Shown here piece by piece: positions 4,618 through 33,449 of a stretch of 34,858 nucleotides of DNA. Location: the NCBI GenBank assembly GCA_009692105.1, contig SHZS01000014.1, positions 1 to 34,858 on the forward strand. The letters are read 5' to 3'. The DNA comes from Gemmatimonadota bacterium (GTDB lineage: Bacteria; Gemmatimonadota; Gemmatimonadetes; Longimicrobiales; Gaopeijiaceae). A program made the position numbers and the translations under genes. The notes under the pieces are model-generated. The model searched no databases and was not told the origin of the DNA. It saw nothing but the letters and a program-made list of their open reading frames with translations. Within the stretch, counting starts at the first letter, position 1. Every line of letters begins with the position of its first letter.

Positions 4618-5319
4618 CTACCGCCGCAGCAGCGTGACGATGATCCCCGCGAGTCCCACGGTCGCGCTCACCATGAAGCTGCTGTTGCGGTCGAACCACC
4701 CTCGGCGATCTACGAAGATCTGATCGCCCGACCGGATGTCGATCGACAAGAGATCCTGGTCCGGGCCGACCTTCGTGAAGAGAGTCCGGCCGTCCCGCAT
4801 GACGCGAAGCTTCAATGGATCCCCCTCGGCGCTCGGCCCCCCCGCCAGCGCCACGGCGCCCGCGAGGGTGACCGTCGGATCGACCGCCAGGAGACCGGGC
4901 TCGTTCACGTATCCGAGCACGTAGATCCGGCGAAGCGGTGTGATCACGATCGAGGGGTTTCGAAGCTCCACATGATAGGCTTCGATCAGGGTCATGGGCA
5001 GGTCGCGGATCGGGATGCCGGTGACCGGTACGCGCCCCAACAATGGAAGGGTCACGATCCCCGCCTCGTCTACGATGAACTCCCCGCTCAGGTCCTCCTC
5101 CTGCCAGATCTCGACCCCGATCACGTCACCCGGGCGGAGCGTTGCGCTCGCCGCAGCGGGTGGAGGGGTCTGACCCGAAAGACTGGCAGACGCACAAATG
5201 AGGCTGGCAGCCACCCAGATGAGGCTGGCGGGTGCCCGGGCAAGGCTGGCTGGCGCCCGCGCCCGGGCGGCGCAGAGCGGACGCAGGCGTCCCGTGGCTC
5301 GGAAGGTCCGGCAGTTCAT
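4618..5319 (-). CDS. Polysaccharide export outer-membrane protein (Wza family)
   Basis: A small Wza/Poly_export protein with an SLBB domain, acting in the periplasm and outer membrane as the export channel for capsule or exopolysaccharide. After a long signal region (residues 1 to about 50) come LRPGDVIGVEIWQEEDLSGEF, typical of the Poly_export domain, DEAGIVTLPLLGRV, then the SLBB part around IYVLGYVNEPG and LAGAVALAGG. A C-terminal hydrophobic helix (FMVSATVGLAGIIVTLL) may be the membrane segment. At 233 aa it is shorter than E. coli Wza (about 380 aa) but typical of the short forms in other phyla. No lipobox with a proper -1 residue is visible, so the signal peptide looks like type I. The signal is built from degenerate 7-residue repeats. 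It is convergent with the GT2 gene (39 bases) and divergent from the O-antigen ligase gene. Confidence 0.88.
   Translation of the reverse strand: MNCRTFRATGRLRPLCAARARAPASLARAPASLIWVAASLICASASLSGQTPPPAAASATLRPGDVIGVEIWQEEDLSGEFIVDEAGIVTLPLLGRVPVTGIPIRDLPMTLIEAYHVELRNPSIVITPLRRIYVLGYVNEPGLLAVDPTVTLAGAVALAGGPSAEGDPLKLRVMRDGRTLFTKVGPDQDLLSIDIRSGDQIFVDRRGWFDRNSSFMVSATVGLAGIIVTLLRR
5180..5263 (-). repeat. Four degenerate 21-bp tandem repeats in the wza signal peptide
   Basis: Four 21-base units begin at 5180, 5201, 5222 and 5243. Each opens on the plus strand with AGACTGGC or AGGCTGGC. On the coding strand each unit gives a seven-residue block containing Ala-Ser-Leu, and together the blocks form the hydrophobic core of the Wza signal peptide. 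The in-frame period implies the core can grow or shrink by whole repeats without breaking the gene. Confidence 0.85.
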
Positions 5320-5379: not shown

Positions 5380-7872
5380 GTGCGAGACCTGCTGCTGGTG
5401 CTCTGGATTGCGCTCCTCGGAGCCACGGGGATCGACTTCCTCGGGGGGGAGGGTCCGCTTCTCCTAACGCCCTTCCTCGTCCTCTCTCCCATTGTCGTGC
5501 TCACGGAGGGGTGGAGGATCGCGGCCGACGGTTGGAGGATGCGGTTGCCCGAGGGCGCACTGTCTTTCCTGCTTGCAGTCTCCGTGCTCCTGGCGATTCT
5601 CCTGCTCTCGACCTTCGCGAGCTACGATCTGGAGACATCGGCGCGCCGTTTCGCCCTCCTCCTGGTACAGATCTATCTCGTCTTTCTGGGAGGGATGGCT
5701 ATTGCGAACCGTCCCGATCCGGCGGCGCTCCTCGTCCGGGGCGCGTATGCCGGCCTCCTGCTCTTCCTCGCCTTCGACGTCGTCCAGGCGATCGTGTGGA
5801 TCGTGGACCCGGCGTGGGCCGAGCCCAGCGCGGGGTTCCTCCATCTCCGGCCGGACGCGTACTTCGGCGTCATCCCGCGGCTCACTGGAGCCTCCCACGA
5901 CCCGAACCTCGGTGGGCTCCTCCTCGTCTTCTATATCGGGCTCGTCCTGCTTCTGGATCGCCCGTCCCCGGTCCGGGGGCGGATCCTGGCGTTCGGGGCT
6001 CTCTCCGTCGTCGCCACGCTTTCCCGCTCCGCGGTTCTCGCGGGGCTCGTGTTCTGGGGAGCGCGGGCCCTCCGGGGCCGCGACTTACGGCTGACCCCGA
6101 AGCTGATCGGCGGAGGGGCGTCCGTTGCCGCGCTCATCGTCGCCGCATACCTCACGGTTCCCGGCATCTACGACCCGGTCCTCCAGCTCGTGGACATCCT
6201 CCAAAACCGCCTGACGCTGCAGGAAGGGTCGACCAGCGAGCACCTGACCGTTGTCGCCAGAGGATGGGCGGTCGGAACGGCGAGCCTGAAGCAGGCCCTG
6301 GTAGGGATCGGGTACGGGAATGCGTTCGTCGTACTACAGGACATCTATCCGGGCAATGTGTACGGTAACTTCCACTCGATGTTCGTCACCCTCTTTGCCG
6401 AAGCCGGCGCGGGGGCGGCCCTCCTGGGGCTCTGGATCTTTGCGCAGGCCATCGCGAGAGCGGGCGCGTACCGGCCTCTTGTCCTGGCCATGCTCGCCTA
6501 CAACCTCTTCCAGCAGGCGCACACGGACCCCGTGCTCTGGCTGACCATCCTCCTGGCCTGGACGGGGATCGCGCTCGCTACCGGTGGGGACGGCCGCTCG
6601 GGAGATCCTGCTCAAGGAGTTTGGAAGGAAGTCCGGAGGGGAGTCCTGGATGATGTTTCATCCCTCGTCACGGCCCCGTCCCGCATGTCGGGCGGGCTAT
6701 TGCTGGCCCTCGTGACGGTCGGGGCTTTGGGGCTCGGGGGGTGCTCCGAGATCCTCACCGAGCCCTATCGATACGGCGCCGTGGAGGTCGTCGCGGTGCG
6801 GCGGTCCGAAGAGCCCGTGCCCGGAGTGCGGCTCGTCCTGTTCACGGGGACCCGGCACCTGGGCTTCGAGTCCACGGGGGAGGATGGCCGGGCGCTCTTC
6901 GACTTCGTCCCCGCGGGGAGCCTTGGGGTCTACGCCACGCCCCCTGCGGGATACCGCCCACTGGACCTCGAGCACGGTTACGTGCACACCTTCGGCTTCG
7001 AGGAGGGGGAAAAGCTCCTCGTCGCTTTCACGTACCTCAAGATCGGGCCGGGATCGGTCACTGCAGAGGTGCGGGATGCAGTAGGCAAGCCCTTGGAGGG
7101 GGTGCGGCTCGAGCTCTTCTCGCCGGTCAGGTTGGTGGCTGCGGCTACGAGCGGGTCCGTCGGGACGCATACGTTCTCCGCCGTGCCCTTCGGGGAGTAT
7201 GGGGTGCGGGCTCTACCAGGCCGTGGGTATACGGTTCCAAGTGGCATGGTGACTCGATCAGGGCTCCTCGTGGAGGAAGGGGTGGAGGAGCTCGCGCTCT
7301 TCACTCTGGAGCGGTGCCGGGGCTCGGTGCGGGTCCTGACCGTAGCGGAGGCTGGGGATCCGGTGCGAGGGGCGCCCGTGACCCTGTACGAGGCAACCGG
7401 GCACGTAGCCGTCTCCTCGACCGGCCAGAGCGGGGAGCGGATCTTCCCCATGCTCCCATGCGGGGACTACGGTGTACGTGTGGCTCCCGTCGCCGGGTAT
7501 CGCTTGCTCAGTCCTGCCGCCGGGTACGTGGACGGGCTCGTGCTCGGGAACGAGGCGGTGCGCGAGGCGCGCTTCACCTTCGCCACGTGCAGGGGAACCA
7601 TCCGTGTTCTCGTTGTCGACGATCTGGGGGCGCCCGTGTCGGACGCAGAGCTGATCCTCTATCAGCCTGGAGCGGTCGTCGCCCAAGTCCGTAGCGGTCC
7701 TTCGGGAAGGTTCGACTTCGGGGACCTCCCGTGCCGCCTCGACTACGCGGTCAAGGTGACGCCGCCCGGCGGGTATGCCGTTACGGAGGGAAGGGGCTCG
7801 AGCTACCTCGACGGGATAACGGTGGAAACAGGGAGTGCGGTTCAGATCACCTTTAGGCTCGTGGCCTCCTGA
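5380..7872 (+). CDS. O-antigen ligase/polymerase in frame with a SpaA-like lipoprotein module
   Basis: Residues 1 to about 430 form a multi-pass inner-membrane protein of the WaaL/Wzy (Wzy_C) type, which ligates or polymerises lipid-linked glycan in the periplasm. Key segments are TGASHDPNLGG, ATLSRSAVLAGL, and IGYGNAF followed by YGNFHSMFVTLFAEAG, the periplasmic His-Ser region of the family. The reading frame continues with no stop into a second module (residue 436 on). It starts MSGGLLLALVTVGALGLGGCSE, a lipoprotein signal with lipobox Leu-Gly-Gly-Cys, followed by four roughly 90-residue beta-sandwich repeats. The whole frame codes for about 830 aa. It may be a true fusion or two genes whose first stop was lost. 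GTG 5380 is the first plausible start in this frame downstream of the divergent wza start; no clear Shine-Dalgarno is seen. The 3' end overlaps the convergent wzc by 20 bases. Confidence 0.78.
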   Translation: MRDLLLVLWIALLGATGIDFLGGEGPLLLTPFLVLSPIVVLTEGWRIAADGWRMRLPEGALSFLLAVSVLLAILLLSTFASYDLETSARRFALLLVQIYLVFLGGMAIANRPDPAALLVRGAYAGLLLFLAFDVVQAIVWIVDPAWAEPSAGFLHLRPDAYFGVIPRLTGASHDPNLGGLLLVFYIGLVLLLDRPSPVRGRILAFGALSVVATLSRSAVLAGLVFWGARALRGRDLRLTPKLIGGGASVAALIVAAYLTVPGIYDPVLQLVDILQNRLTLQEGSTSEHLTVVARGWAVGTASLKQALVGIGYGNAFVVLQDIYPGNVYGNFHSMFVTLFAEAGAGAALLGLWIFAQAIARAGAYRPLVLAMLAYNLFQQAHTDPVLWLTILLAWTGIALATGGDGRSGDPAQGVWKEVRRGVLDDVSSLVTAPSRMSGGLLLALVTVGALGLGGCSEILTEPYRYGAVEVVAVRRSEEPVPGVRLVLFTGTRHLGFESTGEDGRALFDFVPAGSLGVYATPPAGYRPLDLEHGYVHTFGFEEGEKLLVAFTYLKIGPGSVTAEVRDAVGKPLEGVRLELFSPVRLVAAATSGSVGTHTFSAVPFGEYGVRALPGRGYTVPSGMVTRSGLLVEEGVEELALFTLERCRGSVRVLTVAEAGDPVRGAPVTLYEATGHVAVSSTGQSGERIFPMLPCGDYGVRVAPVAGYRLLSPAAGYVDGLVLGNEAVREARFTFATCRGTIRVLVVDDLGAPVSDAELILYQPGAVVAQVRSGPSGRFDFGDLPCRLDYAVKVTPPGGYAVTEGRGSSYLDGITVETGSAVQITFRLVAS
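6685..7872 (+). other. Lipoprotein-like module with four SpaA/prealbumin-like repeats
   Basis: This part of the frame could be translated separately from ATG 6685 as a lipoprotein of 395 aa. It has a hydrophobic signal of about 18 residues, then Gly-Gly-Cys-Ser as lipobox and lipidation site. Four tandem units follow, starting near YGAVEVVAV, GSVTAEVRD, GSVRVLTVAE and GTIRVLVVDD. Each has a conserved P-x-x-G/D-hydrophobic turn (VPGVRLVLF, LEGVRLELF, VRGAPVTLY, VSDAELILY) and a YGVR/YAVK-type strand followed by an aromatic Gly-Tyr. This is the pattern of carboxypeptidase-regulatory or SpaA-like beta-sandwich domains. Cysteines recur at the ends of units 2 and 3 and before the last strands of units 3 and 4. 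The function is unknown; a periplasmic or outer-membrane glycan-assembly role is inferred from the context only. Confidence 0.65.
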
Positions 7873-10210
7873 TGTTGCGTCGTGCGCGCTCACGCCCGTC
7901 CTCGGTGATCACGACCCCGAGGATCCGTCCCGACGCCCGTCGGATCTCGTCGGCAGCCCACCGGAGGGATTCACTCCGCGTCCGGCCGCTCCGGGCAACC
8001 AGAATCACACCGTCCGCAAGGCTGGCCAGCGCCGTGGCGTCGTGCCCCGTCTCCATCGCTGGCGAGTCCACGACCACCGCACGATACCGCGACCGGAGTG
8101 CGTCGAGGAACGCGGTAACACGCTGTGAGGACAGCACCTCCAGGGGGTGAGTCGAAATGTCCCCCGCCGGAAAGAGGTGAAGTGATTCCACCTCGTGTAC
8201 CACCGCGTCCGCCGGCGTTCCGTCGAGAGCTGCCCGCACCCATCCGGGCTGATGCGGGATACCAAAGAGAGAGTGCAAGGCGGCGTTCCGTAGGTCTGCG
8301 TCCACGAGCGCGGTCGGAACGCCCTGTCGGGCGAGCGCGGCAGCGAGGTTCGCCGCGACGGTAGACCGACCGTCCCCCTCGCTCGGGCTTGCCACGAGCA
8401 CGATGCCGGGTTCGGATCCCCGCGAGCGGAGGAAGAGGGCCAGCCCTCGGTAGCTCTCCGCAGCGGCGTGCCACGGATCGCTGAGGGTCACGATTTCAAC
8501 TCGAGCGGAGGACCGGGCCCAACGTCGCCTGCGTCGTGGGATCCCCGCGAGCACGGGGGCTCCGACGGCTTCTTCGGCGTCCCTCTGTGAACGCGCGAAT
8601 GGGCTCCCAGATTCCGCCGCGACGACCCCGAAGAGCCCCATCATGAGCCCGAGGATCCCACTCAGGGCGAGGCTGATCGCTGGGCGCGGAAAGGCGGGGC
8701 GGTCCTCGATGACACCTGTGTCCACGATCCGCACGCGGGCATCGTCGATCTCTTCCTGCACGCGGGTCTGCGCGAGCCGAGCCTGAAGGCCGAGGTACAC
8801 CTCGCTCTGGAGGGTGCGTTCGCGGAGGCGGCGGGCGTACTCGATCTCCACCTCGGGGATCGACTCCAGGTCGGCCCCGAAGCCCTCGAGCGACACCGCG
8901 GCCGAGGCGATCTGCGTGTCCAGTCCCTCGAGATAGTCCGTGGCCAGCGCGTAGAGCTGTTCCTCGATCTCACGAATGCGCCCGTCCACCATACGGAAGT
9001 CCGCGTTCTCAGGGGTGCGAAGGACGCCCAGCTCGGCACGCCGGGTCTCGAGCTCGGTCAGTGCCTGGAGGAACTCCTGGACCGCGGGGTTCGTGATGAA
9101 CGAGGGGAACGCGGCGAGCCTTCGATACGGCGTGTCCCCGCCCGGAGGAGGCTCCCGGCCGGATACCTCGGCGAGGAGCTGAGCAAGGGCCGTCCGCTCC
9201 ACCTGGAGCGCATCCCGCGCAACCTGGATCTCGGCGATCCGCCGGATCTGCTGCACCGCCTGTTCGTCGGGGGCTACGATCCGCTCGACCTCCTGGTACG
9301 CCTGTAGCCGTGCTTCCGCGGTGGCCAGATGGTCCGCCTGGTCCGCGACCTGCGCGGTCAGGATCTCCACCTCTCGACGCGAGTCGCTCTTGTTTTGCGT
9401 CTCCGAGTACTGGAGGAAGCGGTCCGCGATGCCGTTGACCAGGGCGCGCGCCAGGTAGGGGTCGGTGTGGCGGTAACGGATCGTGACCAGACGGGAGCCC
9501 GCGTTCTCCCGCTCGATCTTCAAGTCCTCACGGAGGTCCTCCATCATCCGCTGGAAGGGCCGAACCCGAAGGCGAATCTCGTTGGGCGGGTCGCCGGAGA
9601 CAGCCGGAAGGATCCGGAAGGACATGGGCCCGAGGACAAATGGCTCCCCCACCCGCACGACGTCCGGGAGTGGGACCGCGGTCCGTGTCCCTCGCGAGGA
9701 CACTCGGTACGATCCGTCCTCCTGGAGCCGGAATGAGAACACCCCTCTCGGAGCGTCCACGCCGACTTCGAGCACCTCCACGACGTTGGTTCGGAACTCT
9801 CGTCTGGGACGGACGAGCTCTACCTGGAGGGAGAGAGGGTCCGCGATGGCCGCCACGATCAGGCGGCTGCCCAGGACGCCCATCTCCGTCTGGACGTCCG
9901 TGTCCGAGAGGCCAGGAACCGATATGCCCGTCGGGAGCGCTTCCTCGAGGCCGGCGAGTAGGCCGCTGCCGAGCCCGCCCTGCTCTCTGGCGCGCACTCT
10001 TACCGACGCCTCGCTCTCCCAGACCGGGGGGATGAGCAGCGTGACACCCATCACGGCCGCGACGACCCCCAGGACGATCAAAAAGAAGAGGCCCCACCGC
10101 CGGGCGAGCGCGCGCGGGAGGTCACGGAGATCCATCGAACGCCCGCTGGGCGAGCCCCCGCTCGATGGCCGGAGTGGTTCGGCGTCGGGGGGGGTGGGGG
10201 ATCGCGCCAT
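7853..10210 (-). CDS. Wzc-type polysaccharide copolymerase with degenerate kinase domain
   Basis: An inner-membrane Wzz/Wzc chain-length and export regulator of 785 aa. A cytoplasmic N-tail is followed by a first membrane helix (residues 40-65), a long periplasmic part with a Wzz domain and coiled coil (about 230-490), a second helix after PAFPRPAIS (about 520-545), and a C-terminal BY-kinase-like ATPase domain. The Walker A region reads SPSEGDGRSTVAANLA: Arg (codon CGG) stands where the catalytic Lys belongs. Walker A' (ALVDADLRNAALH) and Walker B (VVVDSPAM) are kept. The C-terminus lacks the usual tyrosine cluster, so phosphorylation-based control is probably lost (inference). It starts with ATG 12 bases after the upstream wzi gene, so the two form an operon. 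Its 3' end overlaps the ligase/lipoprotein gene by 20 bases. Confidence 0.9.
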   Translation of the reverse strand: MARSPTPPDAEPLRPSSGGSPSGRSMDLRDLPRALARRWGLFFLIVLGVVAAVMGVTLLIPPVWESEASVRVRAREQGGLGSGLLAGLEEALPTGISVPGLSDTDVQTEMGVLGSRLIVAAIADPLSLQVELVRPRREFRTNVVEVLEVGVDAPRGVFSFRLQEDGSYRVSSRGTRTAVPLPDVVRVGEPFVLGPMSFRILPAVSGDPPNEIRLRVRPFQRMMEDLREDLKIERENAGSRLVTIRYRHTDPYLARALVNGIADRFLQYSETQNKSDSRREVEILTAQVADQADHLATAEARLQAYQEVERIVAPDEQAVQQIRRIAEIQVARDALQVERTALAQLLAEVSGREPPPGGDTPYRRLAAFPSFITNPAVQEFLQALTELETRRAELGVLRTPENADFRMVDGRIREIEEQLYALATDYLEGLDTQIASAAVSLEGFGADLESIPEVEIEYARRLRERTLQSEVYLGLQARLAQTRVQEEIDDARVRIVDTGVIEDRPAFPRPAISLALSGILGLMMGLFGVVAAESGSPFARSQRDAEEAVGAPVLAGIPRRRRRWARSSARVEIVTLSDPWHAAAESYRGLALFLRSRGSEPGIVLVASPSEGDGRSTVAANLAAALARQGVPTALVDADLRNAALHSLFGIPHQPGWVRAALDGTPADAVVHEVESLHLFPAGDISTHPLEVLSSQRVTAFLDALRSRYRAVVVDSPAMETGHDATALASLADGVILVARSGRTRSESLRWAADEIRRASGRILGVVITEDGRERARRNIRRPRA

Positions 10211-10222
10211 CGGGTTACCTGC

Positions 10223-12028
10223 TCAGGGGCGGGGGACGGAAGTCTTGCTTCCGGTCGAGAGGGTAAGCTTCAGCGTGTGATTCCGGATGTCCACCCCACG
10301 GTGCTCAGTGGGCGTCACCGGCACCGCCTGGAACAGATAGTTCAGCCGGACTCCCGCCGCGTACTCGGCCTGTAGATGAACCCACCCCAGATCGGCGCCG
10401 CCCCGGATCCCCGTGAAGAGAGACACGTCCGTGCGCCGAAACTCCGTCGGATAGGTGAATTCGGCCTGGTTCTCCCAGCGGATCCGCCCTGCGAAGCCGC
10501 CAACACTCCATCGCTCGGCGAAGACGTCGCCGGCAAGCCACTGACTCGATCCGCTCGGGCCGATCGCCGCCCCGAGAACTCGACCTTGGTGCGTGTACCC
10601 CTGTGGAACCGTCCGGCTGGCGTACCATTCTCCGAAAGGTCGGACCCGGTAGCTCGTGCTGGGCTCGAGGGTGGAGAACTCGACCTGGAGGCGGAACGCC
10701 GGCCACGCCGCCCTGGGCTCGGGACGGTCGGACAGGCGATCCGTGGCTACGCGGCCCCCAAGAGGCTGCGCATACTGGAGGCCCACGGTATAACCGCGGG
10801 AGTGCTGGGGGAGCTCGAGGAAATTTCTGAAGCTCCTCGCGGGCTGCTCCCACCGCCCCCACTCCCCGTATAGCTCGAAGCCGGCCGGGGCGAGGACCCA
10901 TCGAACGAAGACTACGAGAAGCTGATCGGGAGCCGGATGCGCCAGGGAATCCCCCGGAATCGAGGAGGGGCGCCCGACGTTCCGCAGGAAATCCAGCGAC
11001 GCGCCAAGTGGAATCAGCCCGTCCCCCGCTGCGGCGTAAACCGCTCGTGCGAGCCCGAGCCCGAGCCCTGGCTCGAAGGCTGGTCGGACGACTACGGCCG
11101 CAGCGCTGAGCGAGCGGTAGTCGTTGGACGGATCGGAGTCGAAGTAGTCCGACTCACTGAGGCGACCCAGGATCCACTGTGCCTCGACGGTCCCAAAGCG
11201 GGTCGCTATCGGGGACGCCGTTCGGGTGAAGAGGTGGGGGAAGCCGGGAGCGTTCGCGCTCAAGAGAAGCCCGTTTCTGATTCCGGGGCCCCACCAGACG
11301 TTTTCGGTTGCGAGCCCGAAGTCCACCGCTCCGGCGTGCACGATGACGCTGCTCTGCCCCGGCACCCCGAAGCCCCTCGATTCTGTGCCGAACCGCTGGG
11401 GAAGATCCATCGAGCCGGGTGGATAATGGAAGGGCGACGCGAGCGCGTGCCTTTCACGAATCGAGTCGGCCTCCGGGTACGCGACCGTCTGGAAGTCGCC
11501 GTTGGCCTCGAAGATGAACTCCGGCGCCAGGATGAGAGACATATAGGGGAGCTCGACCGCGGCGCCCGCGCTCAACCGGAGCGAGACCCCGCGCCCGGCC
11601 CAGAGATTCGCCTCGTTCAGAGAGAAGGGGAGGCGAGAGTTCCACACTGTATGGAGCTCCGGGGCCAAGAGAGCCCAGCTGACCGCGGGCGACGCGGGAC
11701 CGTCGCCTTCGCGTGCGCCGAGTCTGTCGCGAACCGTGGCCGGCGAGCGGAGCAGGAACCCGCTGACGGCCCTTTCACCGAGTAGTTGCTCGAGGCGCCC
11801 GCGATCCTCGTCCGCTCCCCCCAAGGAAGGGAACCTCAGAATGGCCGGGTACTGCTGGGCCTCGACCGCAGCTCCTCCGAAGGGAGCCGCCGGCCAAAGG
11901 GCCAAGAGAGAGGGCGTCAGGAGAACGGGCGCCAAGAGCCCAAGCGCTGAGAGAAAGGGCGCCCAGAGAAGGGGGACGACGGCAGCCGCGCGGGTGTTCG
12001 TCTTCAGGCGGGCTCCGTATGATTCCAT
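10223..12028 (-). CDS. Wzi-family capsule assembly outer-membrane protein (copy 1)
   Basis: A 601-aa protein with an N-terminal signal peptide ending near VEAQQ and a body of alternating amphipathic strands, as in the Wzi/capsule-assembly barrel family. Wzi anchors or orders capsule at the outer membrane. Family-like segments include NLWAGRGVSLRLSAG, PGSMDLPQRFG, the WWGPGIRNGLLLSANAPGFPH region, FVRWVLAPAGFELYGEWG and YTHQGRVLGAAIGPSG. The signal core is built of degenerate ten-residue repeats. The gene is the first of an operon with wzc (12-base gap) and is divergent from a second Wzi-like gene with 56 bases between the starts. The two share the motifs DLPQRFG, LWAGRGV and GFELYAE/GFELYGE, so they are clearly paralogous. 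Confidence 0.85.
   Translation of the reverse strand: MESYGARLKTNTRAAAVVPLLWAPFLSALGLLAPVLLTPSLLALWPAAPFGGAAVEAQQYPAILRFPSLGGADEDRGRLEQLLGERAVSGFLLRSPATVRDRLGAREGDGPASPAVSWALLAPELHTVWNSRLPFSLNEANLWAGRGVSLRLSAGAAVELPYMSLILAPEFIFEANGDFQTVAYPEADSIRERHALASPFHYPPGSMDLPQRFGTESRGFGVPGQSSVIVHAGAVDFGLATENVWWGPGIRNGLLLSANAPGFPHLFTRTASPIATRFGTVEAQWILGRLSESDYFDSDPSNDYRSLSAAAVVVRPAFEPGLGLGLARAVYAAAGDGLIPLGASLDFLRNVGRPSSIPGDSLAHPAPDQLLVVFVRWVLAPAGFELYGEWGRWEQPARSFRNFLELPQHSRGYTVGLQYAQPLGGRVATDRLSDRPEPRAAWPAFRLQVEFSTLEPSTSYRVRPFGEWYASRTVPQGYTHQGRVLGAAIGPSGSSQWLAGDVFAERWSVGGFAGRIRWENQAEFTYPTEFRRTDVSLFTGIRGGADLGWVHLQAEYAAGVRLNYLFQAVPVTPTEHRGVDIRNHTLKLTLSTGSKTSVPRP
11891..11968 (-). repeat. Degenerate 30-bp tandem repeat in the wzi signal peptide
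   Basis: The 8-base core GCCAAGAG recurs exactly 30 bases apart at 11901 and 11931, with a one-base variant at 11961. The 18-base stretches at 11921 and 11951 differ by only two bases. On the coding strand this makes ten-residue blocks (LWAPFLSALG, LLAPVLLTPS, LLALWPAAPF) that form the hydrophobic core of the signal peptide. Confidence 0.7.
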
Positions 12029-12084
12029 GGGCAGGGGTCATAACACGATGCCGCGCGCCCCGTCAATTGAACAGGGAATCACGG

Positions 12085-13749
12085 GTGCTCCTCAGTCGAA
12101 TCCTCATCGGCGCGTTAGCGGCTTCGCTCCTGCTTCCGTGGTTCGCCCGTGCGCAGCGGTTCCCCTCCGGGCCGGCTCCAGCCGAGTTCGAAGCGTTTGC
12201 GGGAGGGGAGATCGAGAGGTACCTGAGGACTCTCCAGGACGCAGGGCAGCTCGCGCCTTACCCCTGGTCCATCCGTGCGCTCTCCCCCAGGGAAATCGAG
12301 GCGCTCGCCGTTCACGAGGCGGCACATCCGTGGTCGAAGCGGTACTCCTTCGCGGGAGATTCGACCGGTGGCGTGACCCGTCGCGTACAGTACGGGCTTC
12401 TCTCCCCGAGCGTCGACGTCGTGTACAACTCGGCATTTCCCTTCGGGGGGAATGACGGACCCTTGTGGGCGGGACGTGGCGTCACCTCCGCTGTCGGCTT
12501 CGGGGGGTACGCCCGCTGGGGGCCGATCGACCTGACCATCGCTCCGGTCGCCTTTCGGGCTGAGAACCAGGCGTTTGGGCTGGCTCCCGGGTCGTCGGTT
12601 CCTGGCAATGAGTACCAGAACGCCGTTGCCCCCGCTCACATCGACCTTCCGCAGCGCTTCGGGGACGGTGCGTACCAGCGCCTCGATGCCGGGAACTCGG
12701 GCGTGCGTGCCGAGTTGTGGGGGGCGACGGTCGGCCTATCCAGCGCGTCGCAGCAGTGGGGTCCAATGGATACCCACCCCCTGGTCCTCGGCGCGAACGC
12801 CGGCGGCTTTCTCCACTTCTTCCTGGGTACCCGACGGCCTATTGGGGTTGGGTTCGGCGACGTACACGTGCGATACGTGGCCGGGCGCCTCGAACGATCC
12901 GAGTATTCGCCCACGCGGCCCGGCGACCCGCGCCGCCTCACGACCGGTCTCCTCTTCGTGATTCTCCCCCGAGGGCTCCCTGGGCTGGAGCTGGGCGGGT
13001 CCCGTTTCATTCACCGGGCATGGCCTGCGGATGGCGTGGGGTGGAAGCTTCTCTCCAGGCCGTTCGAGAACCTGCTCAAGGGTCACGTTCCCGAAGCGGA
13101 TGTTCGAGAGCCCGACAACCAGCTCGCCTCGCTCTTCGTCCGGTGGAACCTTCCGGAGTCGGGCTTCGAGCTGTACGCGGAATTTCTGCGCGATGACTAT
13201 CCGTACAACGTGAGGGTCCTGGTCGAGGAGCCGGACGACCTGAGCGGCCATGCCATGGGGTTTCGGAAGGTCTGGCAGTCGGTCACGGGCGACCGGCGAA
13301 GCTTCACCGTGTTGCGTACCGAAGTGTTGAATGCGATCAGCTCACACCGGGAGCGGGGAGGAGCCCGGACAGCGTATGCGTTCAACGCACTCACGATGTA
13401 CCAGCACGGGACGATCGTGGAGGGGCACACGCACCGCGGGCAGCTGCTGGCCTCGCCCGCTGGCCTGGGGGGCGCCGCCGCCATCCTCGCGGTGGACCGG
13501 TACTCGGAGACCGGGAGGTGGAGTGTTCAACTGGAGCGTCGGGTCGAGCGAGACCGGACGACCGGCGTGGTGCCGGAAGACCCTACCGACGTCGACGTCG
13601 TTTACGCTCTGGGTATGGAAGGGCTGCGGTTCTTGGGCCGGTTGGACGCGCGGCTTGGCCTGACGGCGGTCTACAACCTGAATCGCTACCTGAGCGACGA
13701 CAGCTTCAACTTGAACCTGCGAGTGGGCGCTTCGGCGACCGTTCCGTGA
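12085..13749 (+). CDS. Wzi-family capsule assembly outer-membrane protein (copy 2)
   Basis: A 554-aa paralogue of the divergent Wzi gene. It has a short signal peptide (LIGALAASLLLPWFARAQ) and then a region rich in alternating strands with GPLWAGRGVTS, HIDLPQRFGD, QQWGPMDTHPLVLGANAGGF, FVRWNLPESGFELYAEF and HTHRGQLLASPAG. GTG 12085 is chosen because AGGGA lies at 12073-12077 and the signal peptide then begins directly. Starts further upstream would run into the divergent promoter region and add charged residues before the signal. The protein is expected in the outer membrane. Having two different Wzi-like proteins side by side suggests either two glycans or a hetero-assembly. The 3' end overlaps the convergent GT4 gene by 44 bases. 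Confidence 0.84.
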   Translation: MLLSRILIGALAASLLLPWFARAQRFPSGPAPAEFEAFAGGEIERYLRTLQDAGQLAPYPWSIRALSPREIEALAVHEAAHPWSKRYSFAGDSTGGVTRRVQYGLLSPSVDVVYNSAFPFGGNDGPLWAGRGVTSAVGFGGYARWGPIDLTIAPVAFRAENQAFGLAPGSSVPGNEYQNAVAPAHIDLPQRFGDGAYQRLDAGNSGVRAELWGATVGLSSASQQWGPMDTHPLVLGANAGGFLHFFLGTRRPIGVGFGDVHVRYVAGRLERSEYSPTRPGDPRRLTTGLLFVILPRGLPGLELGGSRFIHRAWPADGVGWKLLSRPFENLLKGHVPEADVREPDNQLASLFVRWNLPESGFELYAEFLRDDYPYNVRVLVEEPDDLSGHAMGFRKVWQSVTGDRRSFTVLRTEVLNAISSHRERGGARTAYAFNALTMYQHGTIVEGHTHRGQLLASPAGLGGAAAILAVDRYSETGRWSVQLERRVERDRTTGVVPEDPTDVDVVYALGMEGLRFLGRLDARLGLTAVYNLNRYLSDDSFNLNLRVGASATVP

Positions 13750-14869
13750 CCTCGCGCAGGGCGCTCAGCACGTTGCCGCTCGCTTCTATCCAACTGTACC
13801 GGCGCGCATGGGCGATCGCCCGCGCCCGCTCATCCGGCCCGACGCCAAGAGAGAGGACCCGCTCGATCGCCTCGATCCAGCGCGCAGGCGAGTCGATTGG
13901 CAGGACTCGAGCCAGTCCGGCTACTTCGGCCGGTCCCACTGTCTCGGGTAGGGCGCCGCGGTCCGAAGCGAAAACGGGCGAACCGCAGGCCGTCCCTTCG
14001 AGAACGGGAAGCCCGAACCCCTCGTAGAGTGAGGGGACCAGGATGCCGGACGCCAAGGCGTACAGCTCGCGGAGTAGCTCCGCCCTCACTTCGCTAACCT
14101 CCCGCACGAGATCGGATACACCCAGGCGCTCGGCCTCGCGCCGTACGACGCTCGCCATCCTCCCTCCAGGACCTGCCAGGACCAGCCGGTACTCGCGTCC
14201 CCGCTCCCGCAATCCATGGACGATCTGCACGGCGAAGGTCGAGTTCTTATGCGGTCGGTCCCAACCGACCAGCAGCAAGTAGGGCAACCGCTCGTGCCAG
14301 CGCTCCCGCGCGACGGTTTCTTCGTGCGCGTCCAGGGGGTGGTACTCGTCTCCGACACCGTTCGGAATGACGGTGACCGCGGTTCCCGACGCGATGCCAA
14401 GGCGAGCAAGGTCGGCGCGCGTAGTCTCGGAAACCGTGAGCACCTGTCCGGCCCCCCGCGCTACTCGTTCGAGGAGCCACCGCCCCGCAAGGCGCTTCGC
14501 GAGAGGGAATTGGTGCGTCAACAGGAATTGCGTGAGGTCGTGGACCGTGACGGCGTACGGAAGGGACTGCCCGAATGCAGGCGCGTCATAATGAGGGAAG
14601 AACAGGACGTCGCAGTCGCGCACGGAGGAAGAGAGGCTGAGAGGCCAACGCAATTGGGCAGCGACAGAGTACGGGGGGTCCTCCCAGGGAGTGATACGGA
14701 TCGGAACAGAGGGCGCGAGTGAGTCGACCCATGCCGCGATCTCTCGCGGGCGTCCGAGGAGTTGGAGGCGCGAAACAGCCGCGTTGGTGCTCCAAGGACC
14801 TACGATCTCGCGGATGTAGGTCCCGATCCCGCCGGCCCGGAGCATTCGGGCATCCACGGCGACCTTCAT
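13706..14869 (-). CDS. GT4 family glycosyltransferase
   Basis: A retaining GT-B glycosyltransferase of 387 aa, acting in the cytoplasm on the lipid-linked repeat unit. The N-terminal domain begins MKVAVDARML and GGIGTYIRE, the glycine-rich acceptor-side loop. The C-terminal domain begins LLLVGWDRPHKN and contains VPSLYEGFGLPVLE, the E-x7-E sugar-nucleotide motif, and CGSPVFASDRGALPE. The ATG at 14869 is preceded by a strong purine-rich site (GAGGAGG), which fixes the start. The donor sugar is not predictable; a mannosyl- or rhamnosyltransferase of the WbdA/RfaB type would fit. It is divergent from wzx (92 bases) and its tail overlaps the second wzi gene by 44 bases. Confidence 0.9.
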   Translation of the reverse strand: MKVAVDARMLRAGGIGTYIREIVGPWSTNAAVSRLQLLGRPREIAAWVDSLAPSVPIRITPWEDPPYSVAAQLRWPLSLSSSVRDCDVLFFPHYDAPAFGQSLPYAVTVHDLTQFLLTHQFPLAKRLAGRWLLERVARGAGQVLTVSETTRADLARLGIASGTAVTVIPNGVGDEYHPLDAHEETVARERWHERLPYLLLVGWDRPHKNSTFAVQIVHGLRERGREYRLVLAGPGGRMASVVRREAERLGVSDLVREVSEVRAELLRELYALASGILVPSLYEGFGLPVLEGTACGSPVFASDRGALPETVGPAEVAGLARVLPIDSPARWIEAIERVLSLGVGPDERARAIAHARRYSWIEASGNVLSALREVTERSPKRPLAGSS

Positions 14870-14961
14870 GGGTCCTCCTCATCGGGGGTTCGGGCTCGTT
14901 CGGGGCTGGAGGGACGATCATATGCAGCGTGGCCAGGCGCGTACAGGTTAGACTGCATGCC
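14870..14961. promoter_or_regulatory. Divergent control region between GT4 and wzx
   Basis: These 92 bases separate two divergent starts. On the minus strand GAGGAGG at about 14871-14880 is a near-perfect ribosome-binding site for the GT4 gene. I saw no clear Shine-Dalgarno for wzx and no confident -10/-35 boxes. Confidence 0.45.
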
Positions 14962-16437
14962 ATGCAGCCGTCCGTGACTACCCCCTCGGAGCGCCGGTTT
15001 GCGAGGAATGCCGGGCTCAACCTCCTCGGTCAGGGTCTTCCGCTCCTCGCCGCGCTTCCGGCTATCCCGCTCCTCATCCGCGGAGCGGGGCTCGAGCGCT
15101 TTGGCATCCTCACGATCGCCTGGGCGGTGATCGGGTACCTCGGCCTCTTCGATTTCGGAATCGGTCGGGCATTGACGTACGCCGTGGCGGAGCGCGTGGG
15201 CCATGGCAGGGAGGATTCGGCGGTGCATGTGGTGAGGTCAGGCCTTGGGCTCGCGTTCGTGATCTCGGGGAGCGCTGGGATCCTCCTCTTTCTTGGCGCA
15301 CCCTGGGCGGCGTCTCTGCTGCGTCCATCGGCCCAGCTCTCCCGGGAGGCCGCCGCGGCCATTCGCGTGATCGCGGTCGCGATCCCGGTTGTGGTGCTGG
15401 CCGCCCTGTTCAGGGGAGTGCTGGAGGGGCTGCACCGGTTCGGGGTGGTAAACGTGGTCCGGGTCATGATGGGTGTGGCGACCTTTGCGGCTCCTCTCTT
15501 GGTGCTCCCCTGGAGCTCGCACCTGGCTCTTCTGATTGGAGCGCTCCTACTGGCCCGGCTCTTGGGCCTGTTCGGATACGCATGGGCGGTGTGGCGTGCG
15601 CTACCGCGTTCCGCCCTGTCGGATCCGGGTGGCCCGGCGGCTCCAGGGGCCGGGGCCCTCCTGCGATTTGGGGGGTGGACGACCGTGAGCAATCTCGTGA
15701 GCCCGCTAATGGTACAGTTCGACCGGGTCGTGATAGGAGCCGTGCTCGGAGCCGCGGCCGTTGCTCTGTATACGACGCCCTTCGAGATCGTGAACCGGCT
15801 TCTGGTGATTCCAGGCTCCATCGTCGCCGCCTTCTTCCCAATGGTTGCGCAAGACGCCGGAGCCGGAGGCGACGGGCGTCCATCGCTTTTTCGGGCATCC
15901 GTGCATGGGATACTTCTGCTGCTCCTGCCTCCCGCCCTCATCCTGTTCGCGTTTGCGGATGCCGGGCTCGATCGCTGGGTCGGTAGTGCGTTTGCGGTGG
16001 AGGGGGTCGACGTCGCGCGTTGGCTCCTAGTGGGGACCACGGCGAACGCGATTGCGCACGTGCCCTTCATATTTCTGCAAGGAATCGGGCGCCCAGACGT
16101 AACCGCGAAGCTTCACCTGATCGAGCTCCCACTGTACGTGGCGGCGCTCCTCTGGACGCTCCCGCGCTTCGGGATATCGGGAGCCGCGGCGGTCTGGAGC
16201 GGCCGGGCCACGCTGGACCTCGTCTTCCTCCTCGTCGCCTTGGGTCGCGTGGCTCCCCGCCTTCGTATCGAGACAGCCCGCGCCGCGCTCGCCCTGGGAT
16301 TGGGGCTGGCGGTTCTCCTTCTGCCGCTCGCGTTCCCTAGTCTGATCGAACGCCTCGTTCTGGTGACGCTGGTCGCCGTCGGCTGCGCTGCGGTAGGGTG
16401 GCGCCAGTTCCGCGGACGGGACCAGCTCAGCGTGTAG
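14962..16437 (+). CDS. Wzx-type polysaccharide flippase (region A)
   Basis: A multi-pass inner-membrane protein (491 aa, about 12-14 hydrophobic helices) of the polysaccharide biosynthesis/MOP exporter family, which flips undecaprenyl-linked repeat units to the periplasm. It begins with RNAGLNLLGQGLPLLAALPAIPLLIRGAGLERFGI, long known as the first-helix pattern of the family (shown here only in part: NLLGQGLPLL and LERFGILTIAW). GLFDFGIGRALT marks helix 2, and a second half-repeat starts near FGGWTTVSNLVSPLM. ATG 14962 is the first Met next to this motif. Upstream in-frame sequence lies over the divergent GT4 gene and is not protein-like. A second, unrelated-looking Wzx lies at 27,259-28,782. 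Confidence 0.87.
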   Translation: MQPSVTTPSERRFARNAGLNLLGQGLPLLAALPAIPLLIRGAGLERFGILTIAWAVIGYLGLFDFGIGRALTYAVAERVGHGREDSAVHVVRSGLGLAFVISGSAGILLFLGAPWAASLLRPSAQLSREAAAAIRVIAVAIPVVVLAALFRGVLEGLHRFGVVNVVRVMMGVATFAAPLLVLPWSSHLALLIGALLLARLLGLFGYAWAVWRALPRSALSDPGGPAAPGAGALLRFGGWTTVSNLVSPLMVQFDRVVIGAVLGAAAVALYTTPFEIVNRLLVIPGSIVAAFFPMVAQDAGAGGDGRPSLFRASVHGILLLLLPPALILFAFADAGLDRWVGSAFAVEGVDVARWLLVGTTANAIAHVPFIFLQGIGRPDVTAKLHLIELPLYVAALLWTLPRFGISGAAAVWSGRATLDLVFLLVALGRVAPRLRIETARAALALGLGLAVLLLPLAFPSLIERLVLVTLVAVGCAAVGWRQFRGRDQLSV

Positions 16438-16505
16438 CGACGTCGCGCGCCGACGTTGCCCCACCGGGGGTTGCCCGGCGGCACTCACCCCCATCATCGT
16501 ACCGG

Positions 16506-17216
16506 ATGCCTCTTTCATCCAGGTCGGCGAAGCGGATCGAACTGGCTCCCGCGCCTCTCGGTCGCGTGAGCGCCCATGACAGCGCTCAGGATAGCGCCCA
16601 GGACACTGATCTCCCGCGTCGCTTCCTCGAACTCGTCGTCGCTGGAGTGGGCTTGGTGTTGGCGCTTCCTCTCTTCTTGGTGATTGTCGCTCTAGTGAAG
16701 CTTGTCTCTCCAGGCCCCGTCCTCTTTCGGCAGCCCCGCATGGGGCGAGGCGGCATTCCGTTTTCCTGCCTGAAGATTCGCACCATGGTTCCCGGCGCTC
16801 AGGAGGAGTTGAAGCAGAACCTCGCGCTCCAGGCCCTCCATCGTGAGAACGGGTTCAAGCTCCCGACCCAGCTCGATCCACGGGTCACGAGAGTTGGGCG
16901 AGTCCTCCGCCGCACCCACCTGGACGAGCTTCCTCAGCTTTGGAATGTCCTGAGGGGCGACATGTCACTCGTGGGGCCACGTCCCATCGAGCGGGAACAG
17001 TACGAGAAGTGGGTTGCCATGAATCCCGAAGCTTCCGATATCCTCACCGCTGCTCCCGGCATCTTCGGCGCTTGGACCGCGCAGGGAAGGAACCGAGTCG
17101 GCGATCCGGACCGGATCCTCGTGGAGATCGAGTTCATTCGGAACCGGAGCCTCGTCGGTGATGTGAAGATTCTGCTCCGTCACGTTTCCGTCCTCATGGT
17201 CGGACAGCGGGAATGA
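16506..17216 (+). CDS. Undecaprenyl-phosphate sugar-1-phosphate transferase
   Basis: A 236-aa bacterial sugar transferase (WcaJ/WbaP catalytic core without the N-terminal four-helix part). It starts repeat-unit synthesis by moving a sugar-1-phosphate from a nucleotide sugar to undecaprenyl phosphate at the inner membrane. A single hydrophobic segment (LELVVAGVGLVLALPLFLVI) is followed by SPGPVLFRQPRMGRGG, FSCLKIRTM, a loop, then RVGRVLRRTHLDELPQLWNVL with DMSLVGPRP, the catalytic core signatures. ATG 16506 gives a normal length; its ribosome-binding site is weak. Near the start is a short 12-base tandem repeat encoding DSAQDSAQ. The stop overlaps the next ATG (ATGA), coupling it to the following glycosyltransferase. 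Confidence 0.93.
   Translation: MPLSSRSAKRIELAPAPLGRVSAHDSAQDSAQDTDLPRRFLELVVAGVGLVLALPLFLVIVALVKLVSPGPVLFRQPRMGRGGIPFSCLKIRTMVPGAQEELKQNLALQALHRENGFKLPTQLDPRVTRVGRVLRRTHLDELPQLWNVLRGDMSLVGPRPIEREQYEKWVAMNPEASDILTAAPGIFGAWTAQGRNRVGDPDRILVEIEFIRNRSLVGDVKILLRHVSVLMVGQRE
16578..16604 (+). repeat. 12-bp tandem repeat in the sugar transferase N-terminus
   Basis: Two near-identical 12-base units at 16578 and 16590 (GACAGCGCTCAG and GATAGCGCCCAG), plus the start of a third, encode Asp-Ser-Ala-Gln repeats ahead of the membrane helix. The region is probably a flexible tail, so repeat number could vary freely. Confidence 0.7.
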
Positions 17217-20719: not shown

Positions 20720-21556
20720 GTGGAGGTGATCGGGGACCCGGTCCCGATGGACGACCTGGTTCGGGTCGCGCGTCGGGCCGGAGAAGAGATCCTTCGCTGG
20801 TACGGAGCTCCGGGAGCGGTCCATGTGAAGGAGGACCGGACGCCCCTCACCGAGGCGGATCGGGCTGCCCACCGGCTTCTCGTGCGCGAGCTCCCCTCCA
20901 TTGTCCCCGGCGTGCCAGTCCTCTCCGAGGAATCGGAGGGAGTGGAGAGGGTGGACCGGCTCGGTTGGACGCGCTTCTGGCTCGTGGACCCCCTCGATGG
21001 CACGAAGGAGTTTCTCAAGGGCACCGGGGAGTTCACCGTGAACGTAGCCCTGATCGAGGACGGGAGGCCGGTCGTGGGGGTGGTCCACGTACCGGCGACC
21101 GGGCGGACCTACCGCGCATCCCCCGCCCTGGGGGCACAGATGGCGGATAAGGACGGACCCTTCCGGCCGATCCGTTCACGCCCCTTTCCTCCCGATTCAC
21201 CCGTCCTGGTCGCGAGCCGGGACCATTCGGGGCCCGGGGTAGAGGCCCTTGCCCGGGCGCTCGGTCCGAGCGTGCAGTTCACCAGCCTCGGTAGCTCCCT
21301 TAAGTTCTGTGTCGTTGCGGAAGGGCGGGCGGACCTGTATCTGCGGGACCTTCACACGATGGAATGGGACACCGCGGCGGCCCAATGCATCGTCGAGCGG
21401 GCCGGCGGGGCGGTGTATGGCCTGATAAGCGGTGGTCTGTCGGTAGGCGTAAAGCTCCGGTACAACAAGAGCACTCTCGAAAACCCCCCGTTCCTCACGG
21501 TCGGTGACCCGTCCGGCGCATGGAGGGACATGTTCGGGGAAGGACGCGGTACCTGA
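20720..21556 (+). CDS. cysQ: 3'(2'),5'-bisphosphate nucleotidase
   Basis: This enzyme removes the 3'-phosphate of PAP (adenosine 3',5'-bisphosphate), the by-product of sulfotransferases and PAPS reductase. The inositol-monophosphatase-fold metal site is intact: LSEESEG near residue 70, WLVDPLDGTKEF near residue 92, and MEWDTAAAQCIVERAGG near residue 215. The length of 278 aa is normal. The start is GTG 20720, with GTG 20726 and ATG 20747 as alternatives. Its stop overlaps the cysD ATG by one base (TGATG), so cysQ, cysD and cysNC form one coupled unit. The position implies recycling of PAP produced by sulfation. Confidence 0.92.
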   Translation: MEVIGDPVPMDDLVRVARRAGEEILRWYGAPGAVHVKEDRTPLTEADRAAHRLLVRELPSIVPGVPVLSEESEGVERVDRLGWTRFWLVDPLDGTKEFLKGTGEFTVNVALIEDGRPVVGVVHVPATGRTYRASPALGAQMADKDGPFRPIRSRPFPPDSPVLVASRDHSGPGVEALARALGPSVQFTSLGSSLKFCVVAEGRADLYLRDLHTMEWDTAAAQCIVERAGGAVYGLISGGLSVGVKLRYNKSTLENPPFLTVGDPSGAWRDMFGEGRGT

Positions 21557-22461
21557 TGAAGACGAAGATCCATGGCCACCTCGAGATGCTTGAGCACGAG
21601 TCGATCTACGTGCTCCGTGAGGTCGCGGCCCAGTTCGAGCGCCCGATCCTCCTCTTCTCGGGGGGGAAGGATTCGATCGTCCTTTCCTGGCTGGCGCGGA
21701 AGGCGTTCCATCCGAGCCCGATCCCATTCCCGCTCGTCCACATCGACACTGGGCACAACTTTCCCGAGACCTTGGAGTTTCGGGATCGGTACGTGAAGGA
21801 GCTGGGCTCGGAGCTCATCGTGCGCTACGTGCAGGACTCGATCGACCAGGGCCGAGTGAAGGAAGAGACGGGCCCGGAGGCGAGTCGGAATTCACTCCAG
21901 ACGGTGACCCTTCTCGATGCTTTGAAGGAGCTCCAGGCGGACGTCGCCATCGGGGGCGCGCGCCGGGACGAGGAGAAGGCCCGCGCGAAGGAGCGCTTCT
22001 TCTCGCACCGGGACCGCTACGGCCAGTGGGACCCGAAGAACCAGCGCCCCGAGCTCTGGAATCTCTACAATGGAAGGAAGAACCCCGGCGAGCACTTCCG
22101 TGCCTTCCCTCTCTCGAACTGGACCGAGATGGACGTGTGGCAATACATCCACCTGGAGGGCATCCCCATCCCGGGGCTCTACCTGGCACACGAACGGGAC
22201 GTCGTGCGTCGAAACGGGATCCTCCTCGCCAGGACCGACTACATCCAGCCCATCCCGGGGGACGAGGTTTCCCGCCAGAGTGTTCGCTTCCGCACGATCG
22301 GGGATGCCACCTGCACCGGGGCGGTCGAGTCCACTGCGAGGACGATCGAGGCCGTGATCCAGGAGACTGCCGCTGCCCGGGTCACGGAGAGGGGCGGGCG
22401 AAGCGACGACAAGCGTTCCGACACGGCCATGGAAGACCGGAAGCGCGTGGGCTACTTCTGA
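21556..22461 (+). CDS. cysD: Sulfate adenylyltransferase subunit 2
   Basis: The small, ATP-pyrophosphatase-type subunit of ATP sulfurylase; with CysN it makes adenosine 5'-phosphosulfate (APS) from sulfate and ATP. The PP-loop LLFSGGKDSIVL is near residue 35. HIDTGHNFPETLEFRD, IGGARRDEEKARAKER and FPLSNWTEMDVWQYI are close matches to the family, and the C-terminus KRVGYF is the usual ending. The length is 301 aa. ATG 21556 begins MKTKIHGHLEMLEHESI, exactly where the family begins. Both ends share a base with their neighbours (TGATG), which points to strict co-expression. Confidence 0.96.
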   Translation: MKTKIHGHLEMLEHESIYVLREVAAQFERPILLFSGGKDSIVLSWLARKAFHPSPIPFPLVHIDTGHNFPETLEFRDRYVKELGSELIVRYVQDSIDQGRVKEETGPEASRNSLQTVTLLDALKELQADVAIGGARRDEEKARAKERFFSHRDRYGQWDPKNQRPELWNLYNGRKNPGEHFRAFPLSNWTEMDVWQYIHLEGIPIPGLYLAHERDVVRRNGILLARTDYIQPIPGDEVSRQSVRFRTIGDATCTGAVESTARTIEAVIQETAAARVTERGGRSDDKRSDTAMEDRKRVGYF

Positions 22462-25840: not shown

Positions 25841-27262
25841 TCACATGAACGCCCGCCATCCTGATCGCTCACCGCTGATAACGCCGGATCCGGTGAGACC
25901 CGAACCCCACCAAAAGATGTTCGCGGCGATGAAGAGGGCGAGCAGTTGCCACAACGCCTTGGGGATGCGCTTGCGATCGACCGTAACAAGGCTCGGCAGA
26001 AAGAGGACCGTTCCCACCGATACGTAGGACGAGTGGACCTCGTGGGTGCCGAACGAGGCAACCAGCAGGAGAAGACCAAACAGCAGTGCGGGATCGATCC
26101 GCTCCGTCCGCCGCCATTCCCTGAACGCCACGGGCAGGACCAGGACGTACATCGCGGCATTCACCACCTGCTGAAAAAAATCTGGAATCATATACGGTGC
26201 TCCCGGAATCCGATCCCTCCCGTAGAACACCTGATACCATGGGAAGGGGCCGACGAGCCCCTGGAGCACCCGACGGGGGAGCTCCCATACCGTGAATGCG
26301 CCGATCTCGGCGTCAAAGCGCCCAAGCGCCGTGTTGAGTACCGATTCACCAAACGACAGGAGCAAGAGGACCCCGCCGCCGAACACCAACGCCGCCTGCC
26401 AACTTATGCGGTCCTTAGCGATGAGACTGACTGCCAGCAGAGGAACCAGCAGCAGATATGGCTGGCGCATACTGAACGTGAGGGCGCAGGCGAGAGGAAG
26501 CACGACGATCCAGGTGACTTTCGAGTTGCGGGTGAGAAACATCAGCGCAAACGCGACCATGATCCAGGTCTGCCCGACTGTGTCGCGCCAAAAAATGCTC
26601 GAGATGAATCCGAACGGCTGAAAGGCCGCGATGATCGCAATCCATTTCAGCGACGGGCTATCGGGGGCACGCATTTTCGCGAGCATGATGACGATGTACG
26701 TGGTGTACATGGCATGGAGCGTGTTCCAGGCCGCGTAGTTGAGCGTATTTTGCCCCGTAAACCAATACAAGAATGCATTGTAGATGGTGATGAACGGGTT
26801 CTTGTTCAATACATAGAACGTGGCTGGCATCGCCGACAGAAATCCCTGAGATCGCCACGTGTAAACGACGTACGCCATCTCGTCGTTGAGCCACTGATAA
26901 TCGCTCAGATAGTTGATCTGATCTGGTTGGAGAGAATAATCGGGATTCATCAGCACAAGAAAGTGGACCACTCCCACCGAGAGGCGGACGACAAACGCGA
27001 CGACGATGATGCCGTAGACTGAATCGCCTACGTCGCGGCGAAAGAAGAACAAGTGCGCGATCGACAGTCCCGCGAGACAGGCGAGCGACGTCAAGATGAG
27101 GCTTACAAACGGCGCTCGCTCCGTCCCGATCTGCGCGAACAAACCGACGACGATAACCTCGCACGCGACTAGGCCGACCATCGTCGGCCAGCCTGAGGCG
27201 GCCCGGAGCGACCGGCTGCCGGCGACTGGGCGGTCGACCACGCCGCGCACTGCCGTGGTCAT
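25841..27262 (-). CDS. Multi-pass membrane protein, putative Wzy-like polymerase
   Basis: A hydrophobic protein of 473 aa with about ten or more predicted helices; I do not recognise it as a named family member. Visible points include a large loop after helix 4 containing YSLQPDQINYLSDYQWLND, the motif FGFISSIFWRDTVGQTW (a short Arg-Asp pair beside a helix) and MRQPYLLLVPLL. Its size, topology and place directly after a Wzx make an oligosaccharide polymerase (Wzy or EpsG-like) the best guess. ATG 27262 overlaps the wzx stop as ATGA, which sets the start. The GC content is clearly lower than in the genes to its left. Confidence 0.6.
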   Translation of the reverse strand: MTTAVRGVVDRPVAGSRSLRAASGWPTMVGLVACEVIVVGLFAQIGTERAPFVSLILTSLACLAGLSIAHLFFFRRDVGDSVYGIIVVAFVVRLSVGVVHFLVLMNPDYSLQPDQINYLSDYQWLNDEMAYVVYTWRSQGFLSAMPATFYVLNKNPFITIYNAFLYWFTGQNTLNYAAWNTLHAMYTTYIVIMLAKMRAPDSPSLKWIAIIAAFQPFGFISSIFWRDTVGQTWIMVAFALMFLTRNSKVTWIVVLPLACALTFSMRQPYLLLVPLLAVSLIAKDRISWQAALVFGGGVLLLLSFGESVLNTALGRFDAEIGAFTVWELPRRVLQGLVGPFPWYQVFYGRDRIPGAPYMIPDFFQQVVNAAMYVLVLPVAFREWRRTERIDPALLFGLLLLVASFGTHEVHSSYVSVGTVLFLPSLVTVDRKRIPKALWQLLALFIAANIFWWGSGLTGSGVISGERSGWRAFM

Positions 27263-29720: not shown

Positions 29721-29801
29721 GTTTAACAAGCTAGGTTCAGAAGGTGTGTAAGAAGAGAGGCGACAGGCTGCCGTTCATACACCTATTGAGCCGAGCGCTG
29801 T

Positions 29802-32127: not shown

Positions 32128-32199
32128 GATTGTCTTGTCGAGAGGGAGGGATCGCAAGTTGAGTTTCCAAAGACGCGCTGGCAGCGCGATGAGTTCTTC

Positions 32200-33330: not shown

Positions 33331-33449
33331 ATGGCCTCGTCGATGCTGTGAGCGGAGGTCAAGGCCCCGCCGCTGAAATCACCTAGGTCAACAGTGCCAC
33401 CCGACGTCCAGGTGGTTGACTCATACCAACCCCCCCCGTGCCGATCGGG
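33331..33449. other. Intergenic gap with a weak inverted repeat
   Basis: These 119 bases between the interrupted methyltransferase and the glycosyltransferase hold no gene. GTCAAC at 33387 and GTTGAC at 33415 pair, and CCACC/GGTGG pairs inside them with a bulge, so a modest hairpin is possible. There is no T-run after it on the coding strand, so I do not call it a terminator. Confidence 0.3.

Follow-up and report, generated by a model that had tools for sequence, protein, structure and literature searches.

A single reading frame in the DNA analysed here leads from a polytopic membrane enzyme directly into a lipoprotein with repeated beta-sandwich domains, and the question raised by this locus is whether the organism makes one composite protein or whether two genes have merged. 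The window, i.e. the whole stretch that was analysed, comprises 34,858 nucleotides of a Gemmatimonadota genome (contig SHZS01000014.1). The frame runs from GTG 5380 to TGA 7870 and encodes, by direct reading, 830 residues. Residues 1-400 form the enzyme body, 401-435 a junction and 436-455 a lipoprotein signal with lipobox; four beta-sandwich domains follow. The GTG start matches the N-terminus of the relatives (consensus MRDxLLVxWxAxLGAxRxDLLGG; alignment A1). A sequence-only reading had reported that the ligase frame passes its normal end without a stop, and indeed none was found before TGA 7870. The joining of the frames is genuine in the sequence as it stands; since there is no stop, ribosomes starting at 5380 would read into the lipoprotein and, if the sequence is right, would make the fusion. 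The frame contains the following features.

5380-6579, plus strand: WaaL/Wzy-superfamily polymerase or ligase, transmembrane body (residues 1-400), predicted from alignment, model and fold match
6580-6684, plus strand: junction, an unconserved enzyme tail where relatives have a stop; no stop in frame 0
6636-6655, plus strand: Shine-Dalgarno-like GGAGGGG followed by ATGATG (6650), in frame +1 to both modules; this frame ends at TGA 6713
6685-6744, plus strand: predicted signal peptide and lipobox, MSGGLLLALVTVGALGLGGC, with the putative lipid-bearing Cys at 6742-6744, from the sequence and the invariant Cys
6775-7041, plus strand: bead 1, kept in all homologues; its TGTRHLGF loop resembles the YxGxRxMGY of relatives
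7051-7308, plus strand: bead 2, prealbumin/CnaB-like domain in the AlphaFold2 model
7318-7587, plus strand: bead 3, whose two Cys at lipoprotein residues 211 and 259 are a candidate disulfide pair
7591-7866, plus strand: bead 4, with a Cys pair (lipoprotein residues 302 and 350)
7870-7872, plus strand: TGA stop of the joint frame, by direct reading

The enzyme is 33-51% identical to ten relatives (alignment A1) and has about 12 predicted membrane helices, of which helices 9 and 10 are separated by a large periplasmic loop, as counted on the prediction and the model (pLDDT mostly 85-97). The best PDB fold match of the enzyme model was the O-antigen ligase WaaL (7tpg; Foldseek, E 1.8e-7, TM 0.59 by target length); a PDB sequence search with the enzyme profile gave no match. 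Residues SRS 215-217, R277, R294 and H332 are invariant among the eleven homologues in A1, and the invariant Arg/His residues (R216, R277, R294, H332) are in keeping with R215, R288 and H338 given for E. coli WaaL (PMC3643930), to which they may correspond. The Wzy_C domain (PF04932) was matched at E <= 1e-3 by 10 of the 11 A1 members; for the enzyme itself it scored 27.3 and 30.9 bits, both below the curated cut-off of 31.7. The name O-antigen ligase given in the sequence-only reading needs correcting: the match of 27.3 bits lies under the Pfam cut-off, and the enzyme may be a polymerase or a ligase. With WaaL (PF04932, CAZy GT121; 7tpg) the enzyme shares the predicted twelve-helix fold, the loop between helices 9 and 10 and possibly the conserved Arg/His residues; it differs in being 18% identical, below the Pfam cut-off, and accompanied by a lipoprotein partner.

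The surroundings of the frame are those of an exopolysaccharide locus, with several glycosyltransferases also in the window, and include the following genes.

4618-5319, minus strand: Wza/EpsE-type polysaccharide export protein (PF02563, 1.5e-13)
7853-10210, minus strand: Wzc/Wzz-type chain-length and ATPase protein (PF02706, PF13807, CBP_BcsQ; TIGR01005, 2.4e-41)
10223-12028, minus strand: Wzi-like capsule assembly protein (PF14052, 3e-7)
12019-13749, plus strand: second, divergent Wzi-like protein (PF14052, 6.6e-7)
14719-16437, plus strand: Wzx-type flippase (PF01943, 4e-20)
16398-17216, plus strand: initiating phosphoglycosyl transferase (Bac_transf; PF02397, 6.1e-52)

No second Wzy_C-like enzyme was found in the genome. 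As the sole Wzy_C-like protein, with Wza, Wzc, Wzi, Wzx and initiating-transferase genes around it, the enzyme is at least as likely a polymerase as a ligase, and the setting suggests that it is most likely the polymerase of a Wzx/Wzy exopolysaccharide locus; in this, too, it may differ from WaaL. It shares with the Wzy polymerases of Wzx/Wzy clusters the setting with flippase, initiating transferase, Wza, Wzc and Wzi, and differs from them in its WaaL-like predicted fold. We know of no described Wzy with an obligate CnaB-bead lipoprotein partner.

Several other features of the locus were recorded. The two Wzi-like genes form a back-to-back divergent pair (10223-13749) that is kept in many relatives. 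Genes for an inositol-phosphatase-like protein (CysQ type), a PAPS-reductase-domain protein and an EF-Tu-like/APS-kinase protein (CysN/C type) lie within the polysaccharide locus (20720-24347). They might provide the activated sulfate from which a sulfated polymer is made; a sulfotransferase was not identified. The G+C content falls from about 0.67 to 0.58-0.61 at 26001-34000, a region with RmlA/B/C-type genes that is possibly a foreign cassette. On the minus strand, 27262-28896 holds an open frame of some 545 residues; it shows about ten hydrophobic segments, matches no Pfam family and may encode an unrecognised membrane enzyme.

The second module of the joint frame has the makings of a complete lipoprotein. 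The LGGC lipobox placed earlier at about residue 451 was confirmed in residues 436-455: the hydrophobic signal MSGGLLLALVTVGALGLGG ends at the lipobox Cys (LGG/C; codon 6742-6744), which is invariant in 13 homologues. The signal is complete by sequence, and lipidation and cleavage are predicted. The four tandem beta-sandwich repeats were likewise borne out by Pfam (CarboxypepD_reg, 4.6e-22; SdrD_B; SpaA), by an AlphaFold2 model of the separate lipoprotein (mean pLDDT 90.6), which places the domains at lipoprotein residues 31-119, 123-208, 212-301 and 303-394, and by a fold search, in which the matches were CnaB/SpaA pilin domains and stalk domains of Gram-positive adhesins. The bead structures were taken from the separate model, the full-frame model being poor in this region because no alignment rows cover the beads. 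Identity between beads is 24-36%. The beads thus predicted share fold and tandem arrangement with the CnaB/SpaA/SdrD B-type stalks of Gram-positive adhesins and pilins, and differ in their predicted lipid anchor, in a lineage of Gram-negative type, in their few lysines and in the Cys pairs, which are conserved, in beads 3 and 4. The lysines number four in total (110, 119, 135 and 357) over four domains, with none in bead 3, which is fewer than isopeptide-bonded domains of this kind would need. The mature lipoproteins range from about 101 to 475 residues, i.e. roughly one to five beads.

Whether enzyme and lipoprotein belong to one protein was examined among the relatives. A contig search with the full joint frame as query gave no match; a profile search from alignment A1 then gave 19 loci, and a 395-genome sample of the phylum was surveyed later; relatives that carry a name are Gemmatimonadetes, Gemmatimonadales and Longimicrobiaceae genomes, which mark the organism as a gemmatimonadote. 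The fused frame was present in none of the 26 other Gemmatimonadota genomes with the enzyme, and thus in no second lineage; the two modules are separate genes in all relatives with an identified pair. In 14 of the 26 (G015, G057, G019, G045, G142, G071, G073, G088, G096, G234, G301, G377, G385, G433) the lipoprotein follows the enzyme on the same strand, and every one of these 14 tandem pairs is interrupted by a stop between its modules. Relative to the enzyme, the lipoprotein is read in the +2 frame in 13 of them, and several show an overlap of four bases (ATGA or GTGA), which would be expected of translationally coupled separate genes; in G073 the lipoprotein lies in the enzyme's frame, behind a TGA. 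A further 11 genomes have the pair in reverse order or on opposite strands: four with the lipoprotein first and a stop between (G302, G359, G374, G378) and seven with it nearby on the other strand (G005, G143, G144, G145, G146, G305, G421), a Wzc gene separating the two in the first five. In G087 no convincing lipoprotein partner was found (best match E 3e-6, elsewhere). The sequence-only reading had offered one 830-residue ligase with a glycan-holding arm as its first possibility; stops between the modules of close relatives were the condition that it had named as refuting, and this possibility fails on the stops in all 14 tandem pairs and on the variable arrangement of the others; a functional fusion of enzyme and lipoprotein is not supported by these comparisons.

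The gene order round the pair is that of G015, and the immediate neighbours are also those of G057; these two are the closest relatives, and in both the genes are separate. In G057 (L073, 6254-6296) the enzyme stop lies 43 bases beyond the lipoprotein Cys codon in another frame, so that the reading frames overlap; this lipoprotein has no ATG start nearby, and the nearest GTG lies 139 bases before the enzyme stop; this junction, too, is unusual. In G067 (L041, 4670-5590, minus strand) the gene before a homologous lipoprotein encodes a GT2 glycosyltransferase and not a member of this enzyme family.

The two genes, while freely arranged, occur together. In the 395-genome sample, 25 genomes have the enzyme and 30 the lipoprotein; the latter is present in all 25 enzyme genomes versus five of the 370 others (Fisher P 6e-35, uncorrected for kinship). 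By sequence, enzyme and lipoprotein are thus separate, dedicated partners in a Wzx/Wzy/Wza/Wzc/Wzi exopolysaccharide locus, since a constant partnership with shuffled order points to two separate cooperating proteins. The partnership was not found in the literature searched (open-licence papers only).

The explanation that we consider probable, with good though not full confidence, is that the genes for the enzyme and its dedicated bead lipoprotein have merged here by loss of a stop, the lipoprotein still being a separate product and a glycan-handling partner. The merger of two genes, the second possibility of the sequence-only reading, is the better-supported one, and the lipoprotein signal is kept. 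A recent one-base phase change near 6580, in the unconserved tail, most likely removed the enzyme's own stop; before it, the enzyme tail would have run in the +1 frame to TGA 6713, in the usual +2 relation to the lipoprotein. Over 24 codons from 6580 the codon usage scores -0.06 in frame 0 and +0.33 in frame +1 (favoured over 6580-6651), a difference seen in 0.5% of within-gene windows of other genes here; this is a lead and no proof, because a signal of 24 codons is short and the tails of some unmerged relatives are likewise ambiguous. The junction DNA could not be aligned significantly to that of G015 or G057 (shuffle P 0.2 and 0.11), so that the ancestral stop could not be placed. The distance from Trp to Cys across the junction (183 nt) lies, by simple arithmetic, within the 71-194 nt of two-gene relatives. 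By a base-composition estimate, a stretch of 35 codons is stop-free by chance in about 45% of cases at this G+C content, so the merge needs no special explanation. The GGAGGGG and ATGATG within the junction are possibly a relic of an earlier start. ATG 6650 as an old lipoprotein start overlapping TGA 6651 was considered and rejected: two phase changes would be required, and the codon usage of the frame that ends at 6651 is strongly negative (-0.8).

Alternatively, the frames could have been joined by an error in the sequence or assembly, either of one base or through a lost stop, the organism itself then having two ordinary genes. Such an error would bear on the cause of the merge alone, and on the identity of the genes this reading agrees with the favoured explanation. 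The occurrence of the merge in a single genome would fit such an error, as would the switch of codon usage at about 6580, where changing one base would bring the lipoprotein back to its usual +2 phase. There is no long homopolymer in the region, however, and some dozen further conserved genes of the window are intact, none being frameshifted against relatives. Phase changes at the junction are also seen among relatives: G071 and G073, otherwise alike, differ in phase there, which indicates that natural indels occur at this site. Given the intact neighbours and the G071/G073 difference, a natural indel is more likely than an error, and the latter is judged unlikely.

In a natural merge of two genes, translation would run on from the enzyme into the lipoprotein. 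The latter would most likely still reach the membrane as a lipidated protein of its own, whether initiated at its own start or released by internal processing. ATG 6685, proposed earlier as the start that is still used, is the sole in-frame ATG near the lipobox, and is one option only; it has no close Shine-Dalgarno sequence, and its MSGG lacks the usual basic residue, so that independent initiation there may be weak. Alternatively, Lgt and LspA could modify and cut the internal signal, given ordinary lipoprotein orientation, which is predicted because twelve enzyme helices leave the junction cytoplasmic. Literature searches on fusions with internal lipoprotein signals and on bc1-type polyproteins brought no usable result. 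The working product is most likely the separate lipoprotein.

The lipoprotein is most likely a periplasmic or outer-membrane guide or holder of glycan. It would keep hold of the glycan, or steer it, on the way from the inner-membrane enzyme to the Wza/Wzi export side, and the number of beads would set its reach. A different function, compatible with two genes, would be that of an acceptor: the enzyme would be a glycan ligase and the lipoprotein would anchor the polymer to the membrane, as the O-oligosaccharyltransferases PglL/TfpO modify a neighbouring pilin. These systems, in which PglL genes adjoin acceptor genes in 21 of 31 cases (PMC3643930), share with the present pair a WaaL-like enzyme and a dedicated neighbouring exported protein, and the best fold match to WaaL and the partner in 25 of 25 genomes would suit such an analogy. 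They differ in that here the PglL_A domain (PF15864) had no Pfam match in the 11 enzymes, the partner is a bead lipoprotein and not a pilin, and an acceptor site was not seen: the lipoprotein homologues have no Ser/Thr-rich stretch and no acceptor-like invariant Ser, and their lone invariant Thr sits in a common turn. The enzyme being the sole Wzy_C member of its genome also favours a polymerase, and we regard the acceptor role as rather improbable.

A true single-chain fusion, in which a periplasmic arm of four beads on a thirteenth membrane segment would hold or position the glycan, could draw on the open frame and on the topology, since twelve helices place the C-terminus in the cytoplasm and the next hydrophobic segment would send the beads to the periplasm. 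It is nevertheless very doubtful: besides the lack of any fused frame among the 26 other genomes and the free variation of order and strand, a complete signal and lipobox have been kept that a permanent fusion would not need, and the junction is unconserved and predicted to be disordered (pLDDT 21-56). Hardly more credit is given to a lipoprotein-anchored Gemmatimonadota capsule, for which the enzyme would act as a ligase and join the exported polymer to the bead lipoprotein, the two being made here as a polyprotein that the lipoprotein signal peptidase would cut at the internal lipobox.

For the biology of these bacteria, the lasting finding is the tight partnership of two proteins and not a new giant enzyme, the fusion itself being probably a local accident. 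The merged frame, if real, would test whether processing takes place at a lipoprotein signal that lies within a polytopic membrane protein. To our knowledge, few periplasmic partners of Wzy and WaaL enzymes are known apart from Wzz-type proteins; a partner with a variable number of beads gives a testable way into the question of how the polymer, once it has left the enzyme, is received, measured or anchored.
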